Below are positions 58,767-64,000 of a DNA stretch of 64,000 nucleotides, one piece after another. The position numbers and the translations under genes were made by a program. Location of the stretch: positions 99,741 through 163,740 of the forward strand of contig NZ_CRPU01000004.1 of assembly GCF_001096185.1 (NCBI RefSeq), given 5' to 3'. The first letter of the stretch is position 1, and every line of letters begins with the position of its first letter. The notes under the pieces are model-generated. The model had not been told where the DNA came from and searched no databases. It saw nothing but the letters and a program-made list of their open reading frames with translations. This DNA is from Streptococcus pneumoniae (GTDB taxonomy: Bacteria; Bacillota; Bacilli; Lactobacillales; Streptococcaceae).

Positions 58767-59090
58767 TTACAGAATTAAGGCAGAATTTGAAATCGTAAAA
58801 CCATTTTGAATAAGAGTTTCTTCAACCCATTGACTTCGACTAATTAAGTTGCTTTCGTGAATGCCAAAATCAGCCGCAATTTGTTCATAAGTGCGCTATT
58901 CTCGCATGTATTGAATAGTTACCTTGAGGAGATCGTCTAGGCTTAATTTGGGTTTTTGTCCACCTTTTGCGCGTTTACGTTGATAAACTGTTTTTAACAC
59001 AGCTAACATCTCTTCAAAAGTCGTGCGCTGAACACCTACAAGGCTCTTGAAACGGCTATCGCTCAATTGTTTACTTGCTTCATCATTCAT
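58767..59090 (-). pseudogene. IS1381-type transposase OrfA, with stop
   Basis: IS5-family first frame: begins MNDEASKQLSDSRFKSLVGV and goes on to RTYEQIAADFGIHESNLISR after an in-frame TAG (58898-58896) where IS1381 has a Tyr codon. The frame then closes at 58769-58767. The second half of the transposase is missing. The element is dead and marks the border between ftsW and the accessory genes. Confidence 0.85.
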
Positions 59091-59202
59091 AGTTTTATTG
59101 TATTATATTTTTGTTTCGCAGAAAGTCTATTATCCCTTTCGTTCAAAGGTTTTTACGCTTTTTCAAGTAATCCTACACACTCCACGTGTGGTGCTAGCAA
59201 AC

Positions 59203-59232
59203 TTCTATATTATAGAACGAAAGTATGTAAAA
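59203..59232. repeat. palindromic direct repeat, left copy
   Basis: TTCTATATTATAGAA (59203-59217) is a perfect 15-base palindrome; followed by CGAAAGTATGTAA. 28 of 31 bases (from 59202) are shared with the right copy at 61753-61783. A third partial copy, TATAGAACGGAACTATT, is at 59252. Confidence 0.8.
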
Positions 59233-59272
59233 GTGATTTTGGAATAATACTATAGAACGGAACTATTAAAAT

Positions 59273-60442
59273 TTATTTAGTAAGGAAATCCCCTAATTCA
59301 CTGACCAATCCTTGCTTTATAGAACAGAAATCAATACTCTGAACTTTCGTCGCACGTAATGTAATTTTTTCTGCAGTAGTATAAAAATCTAATTCATCTT
59401 GAGTGAAGAAATCTACTGCATCATATCGACGTATAGGTATAAGTTTTTCATTATAATAAACCAGCATTTTAATCGGATTGACTCGCAATACCTCAGCCAC
59501 CCCAGAATCCGCAGTTGCGAAATAATGGAGATAAATCACATCTGAGTTTTCAATACAATTGAATAAAGTACTTTGTTCCAATAGTCTTATATGAAAAATA
59601 TCCCATGCTGTATTATGTATTTTATCGATTAAATTCTTAGCCCCTAGCTGCAACTTTTTAAATATTTCTTGAACAGCACTATCATTTTTCAAAAAAAGTA
59701 TTAATAAAGTCATTTCCAATTCTAAAAATACGCATAAATCCTCAAAACAATAGCGTTTAAACTCAGCGACTTTAACTTTTGTAGAAAGATTTTTTGTATT
59801 TTTCAAAATGAATGCTTTCAATATATAGCAACACACTGCCTCATACTGTTGTATCACCTCATCATTGCTTAGGTAGTTTTCTGCATCTTCCCAGATTTCT
59901 TTCATCCAAATATATTTATCTAGTTTTAGAGTCTGAGGCACATTAGATTGAAAAACTTCAAAATCAGTGCTATCAAAATAAACATAACTTTCAATCATTT
60001 TGGCTAATAATTCACGATTTAGTGGGGTGGTATATCTTTCCATTAAAGCAGTTGAAATATTATTTGTTAGACGCAACGATTTAATCTCGTGTAAAAACTT
60101 AATTAAATTCTCCTTATCAGGGACATTTCTCCCTCTATATAAATCATGTATGTAGGTAAAAATGTTTAAGTCATAATTGATAATTCTGGCAACAGGTAAG
60201 AAATTATCCTTAGCATTCACAGTATTTTTATCAATAACCCAAATTTTTTGGTAATCTCCCAAACCAATCAGATTAAACTTTCCATAGCTAAATGATTTGC
60301 CTATGTTACCAAAATTTGACTTTTCTTCATCAAATAGAAAAACTCTACACTCATGAAGGTTCCATCTATTGAAAACTTCTATTTTCTGTATGGTCGTTTC
60401 ACACTTAACTAGCTCCTGAATAAAAGGATATATTTCAAGCAT
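59273..60442 (-). CDS. unknown 389-residue protein, PIN-like features
   Basis: I do not recognise the family. No membrane segment or P-loop. Three spots look like a PIN-nuclease acidic triad, spaced widely: Asp91 in RIINYDLNIFTYI, Asp281 in AWDIFHIRLLEQ and Asp312 in HYFATADSGVAEVL, the last like the end of a PIN strand 4. The middle is helical. SD GGGAGG ten bases before ATG. It starts 23 bases after the HEPN-like gene, so the two form an operon. AT-rich codons unlike the core genes suggest transfer. A toxin/effector or RNA-cleaving defence protein is my guess. Confidence 0.5.
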   Translation of the reverse strand: MLEIYPFIQELVKCETTIQKIEVFNRWNLHECRVFLFDEEKSNFGNIGKSFSYGKFNLIGLGDYQKIWVIDKNTVNAKDNFLPVARIINYDLNIFTYIHDLYRGRNVPDKENLIKFLHEIKSLRLTNNISTALMERYTTPLNRELLAKMIESYVYFDSTDFEVFQSNVPQTLKLDKYIWMKEIWEDAENYLSNDEVIQQYEAVCCYILKAFILKNTKNLSTKVKVAEFKRYCFEDLCVFLELEMTLLILFLKNDSAVQEIFKKLQLGAKNLIDKIHNTAWDIFHIRLLEQSTLFNCIENSDVIYLHYFATADSGVAEVLRVNPIKMLVYYNEKLIPIRRYDAVDFFTQDELDFYTTAEKITLRATKVQSIDFCSIKQGLVSELGDFLTK

Positions 60443-60465
60443 AGGTGTTTAACCTCCCAAAATAC

Positions 60466-61446
60466 TTAGTTGTCTTGTTCATAATGAATAACTTCTTCCC
60501 AATAATCATACTCATCACAAATATACAACATTGCATTAAATAACTTCAAAAACTCTTGTTCTTCGATTTCTTTCTCCCACCGACCATGACTAATCATATG
60601 ACGATTTGGTTCATCAAGTGTAAATCTATTAGTATCTTTGAAGAAACTATACAGCCAGTGCATCAGTCCTACATCGCTAAACGACTTATCAATAAATATA
60701 CTATCAATTTCTTTAATCGCTCGGTGACCTACTGGTATTTTTTTCTCTAATGAAGTCATTTCTGAAATTCTATTTAGTGCACCATCAATTACCAAACTTC
60801 CCAGAGTGTATGCTACATAAAAGTTTCGATTAAAGTAGCAATCAACCATTGATTTTACAAGAGGAGCTGAATAACACGGCGAATTTTGTAAGTCAATAAT
60901 AAAATCCTCATTTTTTAGTTTATCCCTAAGCAGCTCTATCCATTCGTCCTCCAAGGTATTCCATTCCTCAGCAAGTAAACGTTGATAAACACTTCTATCA
61001 CGAAAATAAATAACCCATCCATTTTCTGCCAGCAGTTGAACTCGAGAAATAATCTGCTCAATTTCTTCTTTTGTATAAATCGAAGGCAGTGATTTTAAAA
61101 GTTCATTGATGCCACTAAAAATCTTTGAATAATCAATTTGATAGCTAGCAATTAAATTTTTTGCAGAATCTGCAATGTTTTGAATTGCTTGCAAGTGTGT
61201 ACTTGATAACGTTTTATTGTACGACGCAACCACTTCTGACATGACATTAATAGCGCTTTTTTCCACTTGAATTAATGAAGGAAGACTTACTAAAGGAGTC
61301 GTCAAATTAGCAAAATTTACTAATTTAGCTGAACTTAATACATTTGAAGTTGCAATTAATTCTGAAATAATATTAGCATTTACAGTTGCTTGAAAGTTAC
61401 TAAAGGTATCAGCCAAAACAGAAATAGATGTAGTATTTTGTCCCAA
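60466..61446 (-). CDS. HEPN-like protein, main frame (5' end frameshifted)
   Basis: 326 residues from a TTG; helical throughout. Near the C-terminus LDEPNRHMISHGRW carries R282-x4-H287, the Rx4-6H active-site motif of HEPN RNases, in the N-R-H-x-I-x-H-G form seen in many HEPN proteins of defence loci. The frame is open 5' of the TTG for 14 more codons to a TAA. A better start, ATG 61535 with SD GGGAGG, reads 18 codons and stops; a one-base shift at A6 (61493-61488) would join the two. So it is either a broken gene, a slippage-controlled gene or a sequence error. First gene of the HEPN/389-residue operon. Confidence 0.6.
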   Translation of the reverse strand: MGQNTTSISVLADTFSNFQATVNANIISELIATSNVLSSAKLVNFANLTTPLVSLPSLIQVEKSAINVMSEVVASYNKTLSSTHLQAIQNIADSAKNLIASYQIDYSKIFSGINELLKSLPSIYTKEEIEQIISRVQLLAENGWVIYFRDRSVYQRLLAEEWNTLEDEWIELLRDKLKNEDFIIDLQNSPCYSAPLVKSMVDCYFNRNFYVAYTLGSLVIDGALNRISEMTSLEKKIPVGHRAIKEIDSIFIDKSFSDVGLMHWLYSFFKDTNRFTLDEPNRHMISHGRWEKEIEEQEFLKLFNAMLYICDEYDYWEEVIHYEQDN

Positions 61447-61478
61447 TTTTATCTTCTCAGAGACGTTTGTTGAGCTGT

Positions 61479-61535
61479 CTAAGGGAATTTTTTAGAGTCT
61501 ATTTCAACTTTCTTCACTTTAATACTATCAGTCAT
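61479..61535 (-). pseudogene. 5' end of the HEPN-like gene in another frame
   Basis: MTDSIKVKKVEIDSKKFP then TAG. Strong SD (GGGAGG, five bases before ATG) and a promoter (TGGTATAAT, 61578-61570) show this is the natural start of the unit. Adding one A to the A6 run gives SKKIPLDSSTNVSEKIKL and continues into the HEPN frame. Confidence 0.6.
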
Positions 61536-61897
61536 TTCGTCCTCCCAAAACAGCTTATTCATATTGTTTATTATACCACTAAAACTACAAAAAGACCTTA
61601 ACCATTAAGAAGTTCAACTCGAACAACCACTTTGATACTAATTTCTCCTGAACAATAAAAATTTTATTTTCATAAAATCTTACTATTTTGATTTATAGAA
61701 AGATTTTAGAATTTAACAAGCAGTGATAGTGACTAAACATAGTGCCAGGAATCTTCTAAATTATAGAACGAAAGTATATAATATACTGCCTTTTATTAAA
61801 GACCAATTTATAATAAATGTGTAAAATGATTTATTAATAGTTTAGTTAATCATTTACTCTAATAACACTTCGATTTGTAAAAATCCTATTAACAAAG
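61536..61897. other. spacer before the HEPN/389 unit
   Basis: Contains the HEPN promoter (extended -10 at 61570-61578), the right copy of the palindromic direct repeat, a second palindrome AGTATATAATATACT (61773-61787), and a terminator-like stem GTAAAATGATT / AATCATTTAC (61821-61857) after the upstream unit. No other gene seen. Confidence 0.6.
61753..61783. repeat. palindromic direct repeat, right copy
   Basis: TTCTAAATTATAGAACGAAAGTATATAATA; same as the left copy except three bases. The two copies bracket the HEPN/389 unit exactly. Confidence 0.8.
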
Positions 61898-63181
61898 TTA
61901 CCAGTAGTACCTTTTCTCACTCAGATATTGTTCTTTTTGTTCTCTAGAATTTTCATGATTTCTAATTCCCAGTAATTCGTCTGTTGAAGAAACTATGGGG
62001 TCAATCCAGTCAGCTTTGGATCTAATCCAATCAACTTCCTCTTTACTAAGTTTCCCTGCTATCTCCAATTTATCAGCCATCAATCTTAAATCATTTGCTG
62101 TTTGAAAATCTTCTAGTATATTCAGAAGAGACATTGTTCGCTTCTTCTCTTCTTCGATTCTATTTTGTAATTTTCTTTTTCGCTCTTGTTCCTCTTCGTA
62201 TAGTCTTGCTTTCTCTTCACGTTCAAGGCGTAAATTCTTAACTTTATAATACTCTTGGTAAATTAAAATAATTATTTCTGGTATTGATTGTTCAAGTGTG
62301 AATTCTTTAGTATCTTTAATGTATTTACTATCTATTAACTTAAATCTAAATTTTCCGTTTGGTATATAGTCATACTTCTTTATTTTTGGCTTAAAAGCAT
62401 ATCCATTAAACTTAACGCTATCATTGTACTCTGCTAGTTCTTTAGCTTCTTCTTTTGTTAATTCATGAGTTACTTTGTCTGTTGATTCTATAACTTCAAA
62501 ACGAACAATATCCTTTTCAATTTGAATATCCCAATTTGAAGTTACATTGTCACCGATTTTTTCAATAACAGTAACTAGTGTATCTAAAAAGCGATATAAA
62601 CGTGGAAGAGAATTTAGTGAAATACTTTTTACAAATTTAGGTTCTTTTAAATCATTATATCTGTGCCTAGAATCAAAGTAAGGATAAGAAGCTGCTTTTT
62701 CCCTCTTATTCCACTCTGTAATTTTATCTCTTAGATTAGCTACAGATTTATGTAATCTCTTATTTGGAGCCTGGTTTAGGTTTAAAACTGCTTCAATAAT
62801 ACGTTCTATTTTATCGTCCTCTATAAATGATAATGAACTTCTTATACTAGTTGTATCAAGTTTAACAGTATCTCCGTTTTTATCTTCCATACTATCTTCT
62901 TTATGTTTACTAGGTTTTATTCTATTGTTCTTTAGACTTTTTCTATCAATATGAACCTCATTTACGTCATTTTGTGGTAATGGAATAATAAGTTCACTTA
63001 AATCTTGTCCAGTATTCTTACGATACCAATAACTACCATTTGGAATTGGGATTTCAAATTCTTTGCATTTCTTGAGTAAGTCTGAATAGCTTAAATCATA
63101 TTTCAATGAAACTTGTTTTGCACTTATCTCCCAGATTTCTTCATAGAGTTCTTCTCTAGAAAAGGTCTTTATCATCTTCAT
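61898..63181 (-). CDS. putative DNA-binding protein with N-terminal HTH
   Basis: 427 residues. N-terminal TFSREELYEEIWEISAKQVSLKYDLS... and FEIPIPNGSYWYRKNTGQ are a widespread N-terminal module (S-R-E-x-L-Y-x-x-V-W ... G-Y-W) of uncharacterised bacterial proteins, HTH-like. Residues about 330-365 are a charged coiled coil (EREEKARLYEEEQERKRKL). No enzyme motif seen. ATG at 63181 has AAAGGTG upstream; a GTG nine bases earlier is also possible. Follows the 114-residue gene on the same strand. Confidence 0.6.
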   Translation of the reverse strand: MKMIKTFSREELYEEIWEISAKQVSLKYDLSYSDLLKKCKEFEIPIPNGSYWYRKNTGQDLSELIIPLPQNDVNEVHIDRKSLKNNRIKPSKHKEDSMEDKNGDTVKLDTTSIRSSLSFIEDDKIERIIEAVLNLNQAPNKRLHKSVANLRDKITEWNKREKAASYPYFDSRHRYNDLKEPKFVKSISLNSLPRLYRFLDTLVTVIEKIGDNVTSNWDIQIEKDIVRFEVIESTDKVTHELTKEEAKELAEYNDSVKFNGYAFKPKIKKYDYIPNGKFRFKLIDSKYIKDTKEFTLEQSIPEIIILIYQEYYKVKNLRLEREEKARLYEEEQERKRKLQNRIEEEKKRTMSLLNILEDFQTANDLRLMADKLEIAGKLSKEEVDWIRSKADWIDPIVSSTDELLGIRNHENSREQKEQYLSEKRYYW

Positions 63182-63256
63182 TTGAAACACCTTTACCCTT
63201 ATATTTTACATCACCGTTTTTATATTTACCAAGCGAAAACGCAAATTCAAAAACTT

Positions 63257-63601
63257 CTAATTCTTCACTTCTGTATTTTCGCTTAATATAAAAAGTAAAT
63301 CTTGTTTTAAACCGTTAAATTCCTCTATTATTTTATCTAAACTAGTTTCAATATTTTCAACACGGATCTCTGATAGCTTACCATGATTGTATGAAATCAT
63401 TCTTTCAGCGATAATATGATATGACCAACTCTCAGTGAAACGTCTGTCTCTTTCTTCGTTATGAATAGCAAAACCAATTGGAAGAAGATTATTTCTAAGA
63501 CCTATCGCAACTGCTTGTGAACTTATACCTAAATAATCACCAGCAATTTTTAATGTGATTTTATTTAATTTTCTAATATCTTCGTCGGTATATGTCGGCA
63601 T
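63257..63601 (-). CDS. phage-type small DNA-binding protein
   Basis: 114 residues: TYTDEDIRKLNKITLKIAGDYLGISSQAVAIGLRNNLLPIGFAIHN (split) resembles small excisionase/HTH proteins of streptococcal phages and islands, where ITLKIAGDYLGIS is the helix-turn-helix. SD AAGGAG seven bases before ATG. The last codons may be altered: the -1 frame continues protein-like to 63156 and overlaps the next gene by a few codons. Autoregulator of this two-gene unit is likely. Confidence 0.65.
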   Translation of the reverse strand: MPTYTDEDIRKLNKITLKIAGDYLGISSQAVAIGLRNNLLPIGFAIHNEERDRRFTESWSYHIIAERMISYNHGKLSEIRVENIETSLDKIIEEFNGLKQDLLFILSENTEVKN

Positions 63602-63785: not shown

Positions 63786-64000
63786 TTGAATACACTTTTT
63801 ATTATTGGAAATGGGTTTGATATGGCACATCAATTAAACACAGGATACAATGATTTTAGAAAGTTCATAATAGACACTTGTAAAGAATTTGGTAGTAAAT
63901 TTGACTTTAATAATGCTATTAATAGAATTGAACTTGAAGATTTTAAAAATTTAACTATCCCTGAAGTCGATGAAGACAGCAAAAAATCATTTAAAGATGG
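63786..64000 (+). CDS. abiH: AbiH-family abortive-infection protein, 5' part
   Basis: 72 codons, cut by the window end. Starts at TTG: NTLFIIGNGFDMAHQLNTGY, then NDFRKFI. I-I-G-N-G-F-D-x-A-H is the hallmark of the AbiH family, described from a lactococcal plasmid as giving phage resistance by abortive infection. It is divergent from the HTH genes. Domain completeness and downstream partners are beyond the window. Confidence 0.85.
   Translation, partial: MNTLFIIGNGFDMAHQLNTGYNDFRKFIIDTCKEFGSKFDFNNAINRIELEDFKNLTIPEVDEDSKKSFKD

Follow-up and report, generated by a model that had tools for sequence, protein, structure and literature searches.

What kind of element left a HEPN-like and a PIN-like gene side by side between two copies of a direct repeat downstream of ftsW, and what do the two genes do? 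We addressed this question in a stretch of 64,000 nucleotides from Streptococcus pneumoniae (assembly GCF_001096185.1, contig NZ_CRPU01000004.1, positions 99741-163740; genome G000 and contig C4 in our numbering, in which L marks loci), referred to below as the window, whose end coincides with the end of the contig. The original prediction, made from the sequence alone, had proposed a two-gene defence module with mobile-cassette borders; its biological idea held up well, and its account of the borders had to be revised. We find that the unit is a real, mobile two-gene cargo, very likely derived from a prophage, and that its repeats are attachment-site scars of prophages inserting at the 3' end of rum (rumA). 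An anti-phage role is probable from the genomic context; the fuller reading, in which the pair is an anti-phage cargo of two RNases left by a temperate phage of the phi-m46.1/'_rum' type, has in our view an even chance of being correct. Papers are cited by PMC number. The features of the unit are as follows.

59175..59192, minus strand: rum-type attachment core of the left site, matching 15/18 positions of the S. pyogenes attB core as published (PMC4288039)
59191..59275, minus strand: element arm beside the 389-residue gene, including the left repeat copy (59202-59232) with a near-palindrome; conserved in 12 loci, window included
59247..59271, unstranded: third, partial repeat copy from the repeat search, 80% over 25 nt, absent from the original prediction
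59273..60442, minus strand: open reading frame (ORF) of the PIN-like protein, 389 residues, ATG at 60442; D91, E135, D281 and D312 invariant in 13 divergent proteins
60466..61446, minus strand: HEPN-like protein, open frame of 326 residues with a TTG start at 61446; R282-H287 in PNRHMISHGRW; phrog_15273, 3.9e-177
61447..61563, minus strand: 39 codons that extend the HEPN gene at its 5' end in near-identical relatives, frame interrupted in the window, far boundary approximate (comparison with the 365-residue ORF of L074)
61742..61781, minus strand: right repeat copy, an element arm whose rum-type core has decayed, matching at most 10/18 (repeat and core search)

A promoter scan gave 15 hits against 15.1 expected, which is the background level.

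Prophages integrating at rum left the repeats as attachment-site scars

The 31-base direct repeat around the two genes was confirmed by count, with 28 identical positions (59202-59232 against 61753-61783); a wider comparison gave 35/40 (59191-59230 against 61742-61781). Sixty dinucleotide-preserving shuffles of the 4-kb region, with pairs required to share an exact 9-mer, reached at most 28/40. The sequence TTATAGAACGAAAGTAT occurs three times in the window at up to three mismatches (two copies exact), against 0.30 expected. A 19-base repeat pattern was found at up to two mismatches in 26 of 284 Streptococcus genomes, with many such matches at unrelated places, and at up to one mismatch only in G000, G020, G091, G107, G171 and G272.

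Translated from the minus strand, the left flank gives HVECVGLL, with which a RumA-type protein ends; across loci the encoded rum tail is HVE[C/A]VxLL. In 12 loci, the window among them, the stop codon of the PIN-like gene is followed by about 85 bp of conserved arm and then by a rum-type 3' end with a varying tail; the scar is degenerate in S. hyointestinalis. The phage phi-m46.1 uses an 18-bp attB core at the rum 3' end, with variant cores listed by species (PMC4288039). This core matched at 15/18 at 59175-59192, at 10/18 in the right copy, and at 18/18 and 16/18 at the rumA of the same strain, which lies on a separate contig (C3:2717-4069). The best matches in the other 11 arm loci were 8-15/18, as scored against the S. 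pyogenes version. For integrative and conjugative elements, serine integrases are described as exchanging the 3' portion of rumA (PMC4701971). The phi-m46.1 record FM864213.1 also contains the arm, matching that of the S. suis phage at 90.5% over 84 bp and that of the window at 77.4% over 83 bp. It differs from the window in what it carries: tet(O) lies at its arm end and mef(A) at the opposite one (PMC4288039), whereas the window has the cargo end only, without a recombinase.

The arm marks a slot in which the cargo changes. That of the S. suis phage matched 21 of 50,697 phage records, all from Streptococcus and including phi-m46.1, and the window's own arm matched eight. Nine of the 21 records were inspected (domains by Pfam or as annotated). 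The genes near the arm were Mrr-HEPN-PIN in L040 and a C-terminal remnant of the PIN-like gene in L041; of the other seven, three had tet(O) with small ORFs, two had copper genes, one had a methyltransferase and one a colicin-DNase-type cassette. Both S. gallolyticus records retain a C-terminal PIN-like remnant beside the arm. A scan of viral contigs with the exact arm returned three, carrying HEPN-PIN, a DUF3800-like gene (L174; PF12686 E=0.001, just under the cut-off), and, by eye, a cytosine methylase together with a membrane protein. Because the arm is present with other cargo, the repeats are not borders peculiar to the HEPN-PIN unit, as had been proposed; they are scars common to other cargo of rum-integrating prophages. 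Reading the palindrome of the repeat as a terminator was rejected as well, a terminator scan having found none there.

In the S. suis phage phi-SsuFJSM8_rum, serine recombinases are followed by Mrr, HEPN, PIN and arm, in that order. Serine recombinases stand beside the pair in L040 and also occur in L145 and L146. The PIN-like protein of G020 is 99.7% identical to that of the window and the ftsW of G020 only 68%, from which it follows that the unit moved between species.

The single repeat copy anticipated for strains without the genes was seen in G272. This genome lacks HEPN-PIN and carries a cassette encoding 430- and 123-residue proteins, with the same left neighbour (a hydrolase gene) as in G091; its left flank matches the outermost left copy of G091 and its right flank the outermost right copy. 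G091 has three repeat copies with a further cassette between two of them, which suggests a row of cargo cassettes. The G272/G091 pattern fits either direction, successive insertions or deletions between copies. By eye, the cassette between two repeat copies in G091 (L074, 2338-5964) encodes HEAT-like, MFS, peptidase E-like and acetyltransferase proteins.

The rumA-ftsW interval of S. pneumoniae is known as pathogenicity island 1 (PMC4321634). The window resembles it in having ftsW at one border and rum-type scars, and the HEPN-PIN unit is located downstream of ftsW. It differs in that rumA is on another contig, so that continuity is not seen. With rumA on C3 and the join not visible, the window probably carries the ftsW end of an island of this type.

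Conserved residues suggest a PIN-type and a HEPN-type nuclease

The 389-residue ORF contains D91, D281 and D312, which the original prediction had likened to a PIN triad. All three are conserved, and a fourth acid, E135, completes a quartet. A PIN site needs four such acids (D-E-D-D). In an alignment of the window's protein with 12 relatives at 18-26% identity to it, six columns were invariant: M1, L208, D91, E135, D281 and D312. The two halves of the quartet, D91/E135 and D281/D312, are separated by an insert of about 145 residues. We read these residues as a putative PIN-type acidic quartet, from which a PIN fold and RNase activity are predicted.

Relatives of the PIN-like protein were found in 12/284 Streptococcus genomes, in 13/395 Lactobacillales genomes (four of these Streptococcus, one rejected) and in three plasmid records. 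A candidate in G412 (L170; E=6.4e-4) was rejected; by eye its ORF resembles what we take to be an unrelated YbbR-type protein. The plasmid relatives (L221, L222 and L223, from Enterobacter, Legionella and Pantoea) are 418-residue Gammaproteobacteria proteins without a HEPN-family neighbour, and the Enterobacter copy has a zeta toxin gene on one side and a HicA gene on the other. Searches of viral sequences with the distant PIN-like alignments and of plasmids with L169 as query gave no matches. Pfam assigned neighbours of the distant relatives to SMODS cyclase (L163), integrase (L164) and SLFN_AlbA_2 (L168); by eye, restriction genes lie near L167 and L168, and the neighbours of L162 and L165 look housekeeping-like. 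The family spans Firmicutes and Gammaproteobacteria without a matching Pfam, NCBIfam or PADLOC model, and naming it would enlarge defence annotation.

DS-3 of DefensePredictor (PMC13092281) is a published defence consisting of a single PIN protein divided between its N- and C-terminus; in its light, a PIN-like protein could plausibly defend on its own. The window's protein is likewise split; the likeness is one of description, not of sequence comparison, and DS-3 is a one-protein system. E. coli genomes gave no match to the DNA of the Enterobacter relative, a result with no bearing on homology to DS-3.

The HEPN-like frame was also found as predicted, with RHMISHG spanning R282-H287 of the 326-residue ORF. 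The motif PNR[H/N]M[I/V]x-HGRW is kept in 16/16 HEPN-family sequences, whose identity to the first falls as low as 32%, and in 12/12 of a second set. It fits the HEPN rule of R-x4-6-H with a polar residue after R (PMC3710099), so the proposed Rx4H motif withstood the conservation test. By this motif the protein is assigned to HEPN, and a HEPN fold and RNase activity may be expected of it. As in the abortive-infection HEPN RNases (PMC3710099), R-x4-H and the polar residue are placed towards the C-terminus of a protein that is longer than the domain; the difference is that the window's family matches no named HEPN profile, the only such hit being PF18737 in 1/16 members at E=0.23. The eukaryotic protein Swt1 (PMC3710099) also combines PIN and HEPN, in one fused protein whose HEPN domain is probably inactive, whereas the window encodes two proteins with an intact HEPN motif.

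The original prediction missed that the HEPN gene of near-identical relatives is 39 codons longer at its start, encoding 365 residues. Since the window's frame is interrupted in this 5' part, its 326-residue TTG ORF may represent a gene that was damaged or that acquired a new start. Among HEPN relatives, neighbours include an NgoFVII-type enzyme (L086) and DUF5677 (L085). The S. salivarius plasmid pSaLI10 (L042, 5086-6891) has a HEPN-family domain fused behind Endonuclease_NS, a DNA/RNA non-specific endonuclease domain (PF01223 7.2e-6). No housekeeping family was found for either protein of the unit by hmmscan of Pfam, PADLOC, NCBIfam and PHROGs; phrog_15273 itself has no known function.

Pairing, one-sided decay and rival explanations

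A full-length close PIN-like gene (74-100% identity) is present in nine Streptococcus genomes (G000, G020, G060, G086, G091, G107, G171, G173 and G242). The HEPN gene beside it is intact in five and damaged in four, through an interrupted 5' frame in G000, a split in G020 and fragmentation in G060 and G173. The reverse, an intact close HEPN gene with the PIN-like gene lost, was not seen where the downstream DNA is known. Four further genomes carry partial or single members: a shortened PIN-like gene without a HEPN match in G156, a PIN fragment in G052, a distant full-length PIN-like gene without HEPN in G137, and a broken HEPN gene without a PIN-like match in G023. Both genes are intact in two viral records, MN270265.1 (S. 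suis) and IMGVR 2551306247; protein identities to the window are the same in the second record as in the first. IMGVR 2663763501 ends 21 bases past its HEPN gene and was not counted for pairing.

Both genes are under purifying selection in distant comparisons. Near-identical copies (six PIN-like, five HEPN) compared with the S. merionis or S. suis phage copies gave ratios of nonsynonymous to synonymous substitution rates (dN/dS) of 0.13-0.18 for both genes, with HEPN dS of about 1.5 to 1.8 near saturation. The PIN-like gene itself gave 0.14 against the S. merionis copy and 0.17 against the S. suis phage copy. Close-pair values rose to 0.57 for HEPN, based on few changes; the G060 rows were dropped because a two-codon offset invalidated the comparisons.

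From the pattern of decay, the HEPN gene would seem to carry the higher cost or to be easier to do without than its partner. The one-sided decay is also a hint, no more, of a toxin-antitoxin relation. We consider it unlikely that HEPN is a toxic RNase which the PIN-like protein restrains by binding it or cutting its transcript. The damage to HEPN beside full-length PIN-like genes, the lack of a lone intact close HEPN gene and the spacing of 0-24 bp between the genes would all suit such a relation, but the loss also fits a costly or dispensable HEPN gene and the partner retains a nuclease-type quartet. The PIN-like protein is also larger than usual antitoxins. It matches no model of an MNT nucleotidyltransferase, the partner in a Type II HEPN/MNT system. 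The distant loci speak against the toxin-antitoxin relation too: by tblastn (E 0.01), no HEPN-family match lies near any of 12 distant PIN-like loci, and no PIN-like match near any of nine divergent HEPN genes (eight genomic, one plasmid).

With the families occurring apart in this way, an obligatory two-gene system is not established. Of the proposal that the genes form a conserved unit, what stands is the adjacency in close relatives, where the PIN-like gene directly follows the intact close HEPN gene in 7/7 loci with downstream DNA. The separate occurrence of each family would instead favour two independent single-gene defences sharing one cargo slot and transcript, as would the varying upstream gene of the slot, Mrr in the S. 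suis phage and a split Abi_2 in S. merionis. We regard this account as doubtful to a similar degree, since order and adjacency are kept down to 62% (HEPN) and 78% (PIN-like) identity while that upstream neighbour changes. The S. merionis Abi_2 gene (L079, 1258-2257) is split over two frames upstream of HEPN-PIN and occupies the place held by the Mrr-type gene in the S. suis phage.

A role outside defence, in phage lysogeny, lysis timing or transfer, appears quite improbable: the pair does lie beside serine recombinases in prophages, but sister phages have unrelated cargo near the arm, and the neighbourhoods of several distant PIN-like relatives contain restriction, AlbA or cyclase genes. That chance repeats surround two ordinary genes, for which the AT-richness of the unit might speak (GC content 0.316 against 0.398 in window positions 1-58000), is refuted by the shuffle controls, the conservation of arm and scar in 12 loci and the empty site in G272, and is very improbable.

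A proposed anti-phage cargo of two RNases

In the reading we favour, that of an anti-phage cargo, the two genes would come from a temperate phage of the phi-m46.1/'_rum' kind, which inserts at the 3' end of rum. The cargo slot at its arm-bearing end, just inside the attachment site, swaps genes and would here have held HEPN-PIN. The remainder of the phage would then be lost while the cargo stayed on the chromosome, and repeated insertions would build a row of cassettes, each ending in an arm and a rum 3'-end scar. Both proteins would be RNases, kept inactive until infection by another phage. The PIN-like protein would be the autonomous core with a metal-dependent D-E-D-D site, and the HEPN protein a co-expressed second cutter with a metal-independent R-x4-H site. 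Cutting of host and/or phage RNA by both would abort the infection. A review of HEPN proteins considers that RNases may team for multiple cuts (PMC3710099).

Several results weigh against this reading. Neither protein could be placed with support in a family of Pfam, NCBIfam or PADLOC: the PIN models of Pfam and NCBIfam matched none of 12 PIN-like members, PDB sequence searches gave nothing useful for the unit's proteins and matched no HEPN protein, and PADLOC matches were weak (AbiTi 0.0086 in 1/12 PIN-like members; Cas5_IIId 0.0017, PD-Lambda-2_C 0.0028 and PDC-S27 0.019 in 1/16 HEPN members each, and Cas11 0.041 in 2/16). Profile-profile comparison with PIN_12 (L176 omitted, its ORF as cut being without the PIN start) scored 22.9, within the range of 40 column-shuffled decoys (up to 23.1, mean 12.3), although D91 and E135 fall on the PIN_12 D and E. 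Against seven VapC-type PIN proteins the score was 18.2, with shuffled decoys at 14.0 or less and reversed decoys at 15.4 or less. All PIN probabilities were below 10%, and a full-length comparison gave 0.1% in a register that was not sensible. An earlier run had scored 25.8 against 11-12 for reversed decoys, with VapC-type sets that then included wrong ORFs. As the PIN_12 score is no better than the best decoy, the PIN call rests on the quartet. The 5' end of the window's HEPN gene is interrupted, intact copies existing in other genomes, and distant members of each family occur without the other. No recombinase adjoins the unit in the window (inspection of the 52-64 kb ORFs by eye showed none, nor did a scan of five proteins), and we therefore class the unit as a remnant and not as an element. 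The far end of the island is out of view, with rumA on another contig.

A bolder form, which we hold to be possible but rather doubtful, is that the PIN-like protein belongs to an unnamed cross-phylum family of split nucleases, solo in most hosts, and is joined in rum phages with an unnamed HEPN RNase as an obligate immune complex. The two chemistries would cut the same RNA at separate places and so defeat phage RNA repair. A literature search of limited reach found no description of this pair, which does not establish its absence from print. If the anti-phage reading is right, the arm end of streptococcal rum phages, where phi-m46.1 has tet(O), also trades immunity genes, the slot can be read by a short arm sequence, and the stacking of unrelated RNases against phage repair of cuts becomes a testable idea.

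Neighbouring genes

Four further features flank the unit.

58896..59090, minus strand: insertion sequence (IS) relic, IS5-type transposase, 64 residues; NCBIfam transpos_IS5_4 E=0.0018, far under the model cut-off; phrog_17599 4.2e-28, function unknown
61898..63190, minus strand: 430-residue gene of the neighbouring cassette, no family assigned by profile scans; present in G272 with a single repeat copy and without HEPN-PIN
63257..63601, minus strand: 114-residue gene of the same cassette, phrog_6058 9.9e-11
63786..64000, plus strand: AbiH, running off the contig end; PF14253 E=4.3e-11

The AbiH gene reported near the unit is supported by its Pfam match. Support for the IS relic is weak, consisting of an NCBIfam match below the cut-off and the match to phrog_17599. 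The cassette at 61898-63601, to whose 430- and 114-residue proteins no function was assigned, has its own attachment arm; it occurs without HEPN-PIN in G272 and adjoins HEPN-PIN in G020, G091 and G107. DNA resembling the IS relic is labelled 'mobile element protein' in the satellite phage record Javan428 (L218), where positions 220-600 hold the relic and two tandem rum-type attachment sites, one of them, judged by eye, identical to the published core.

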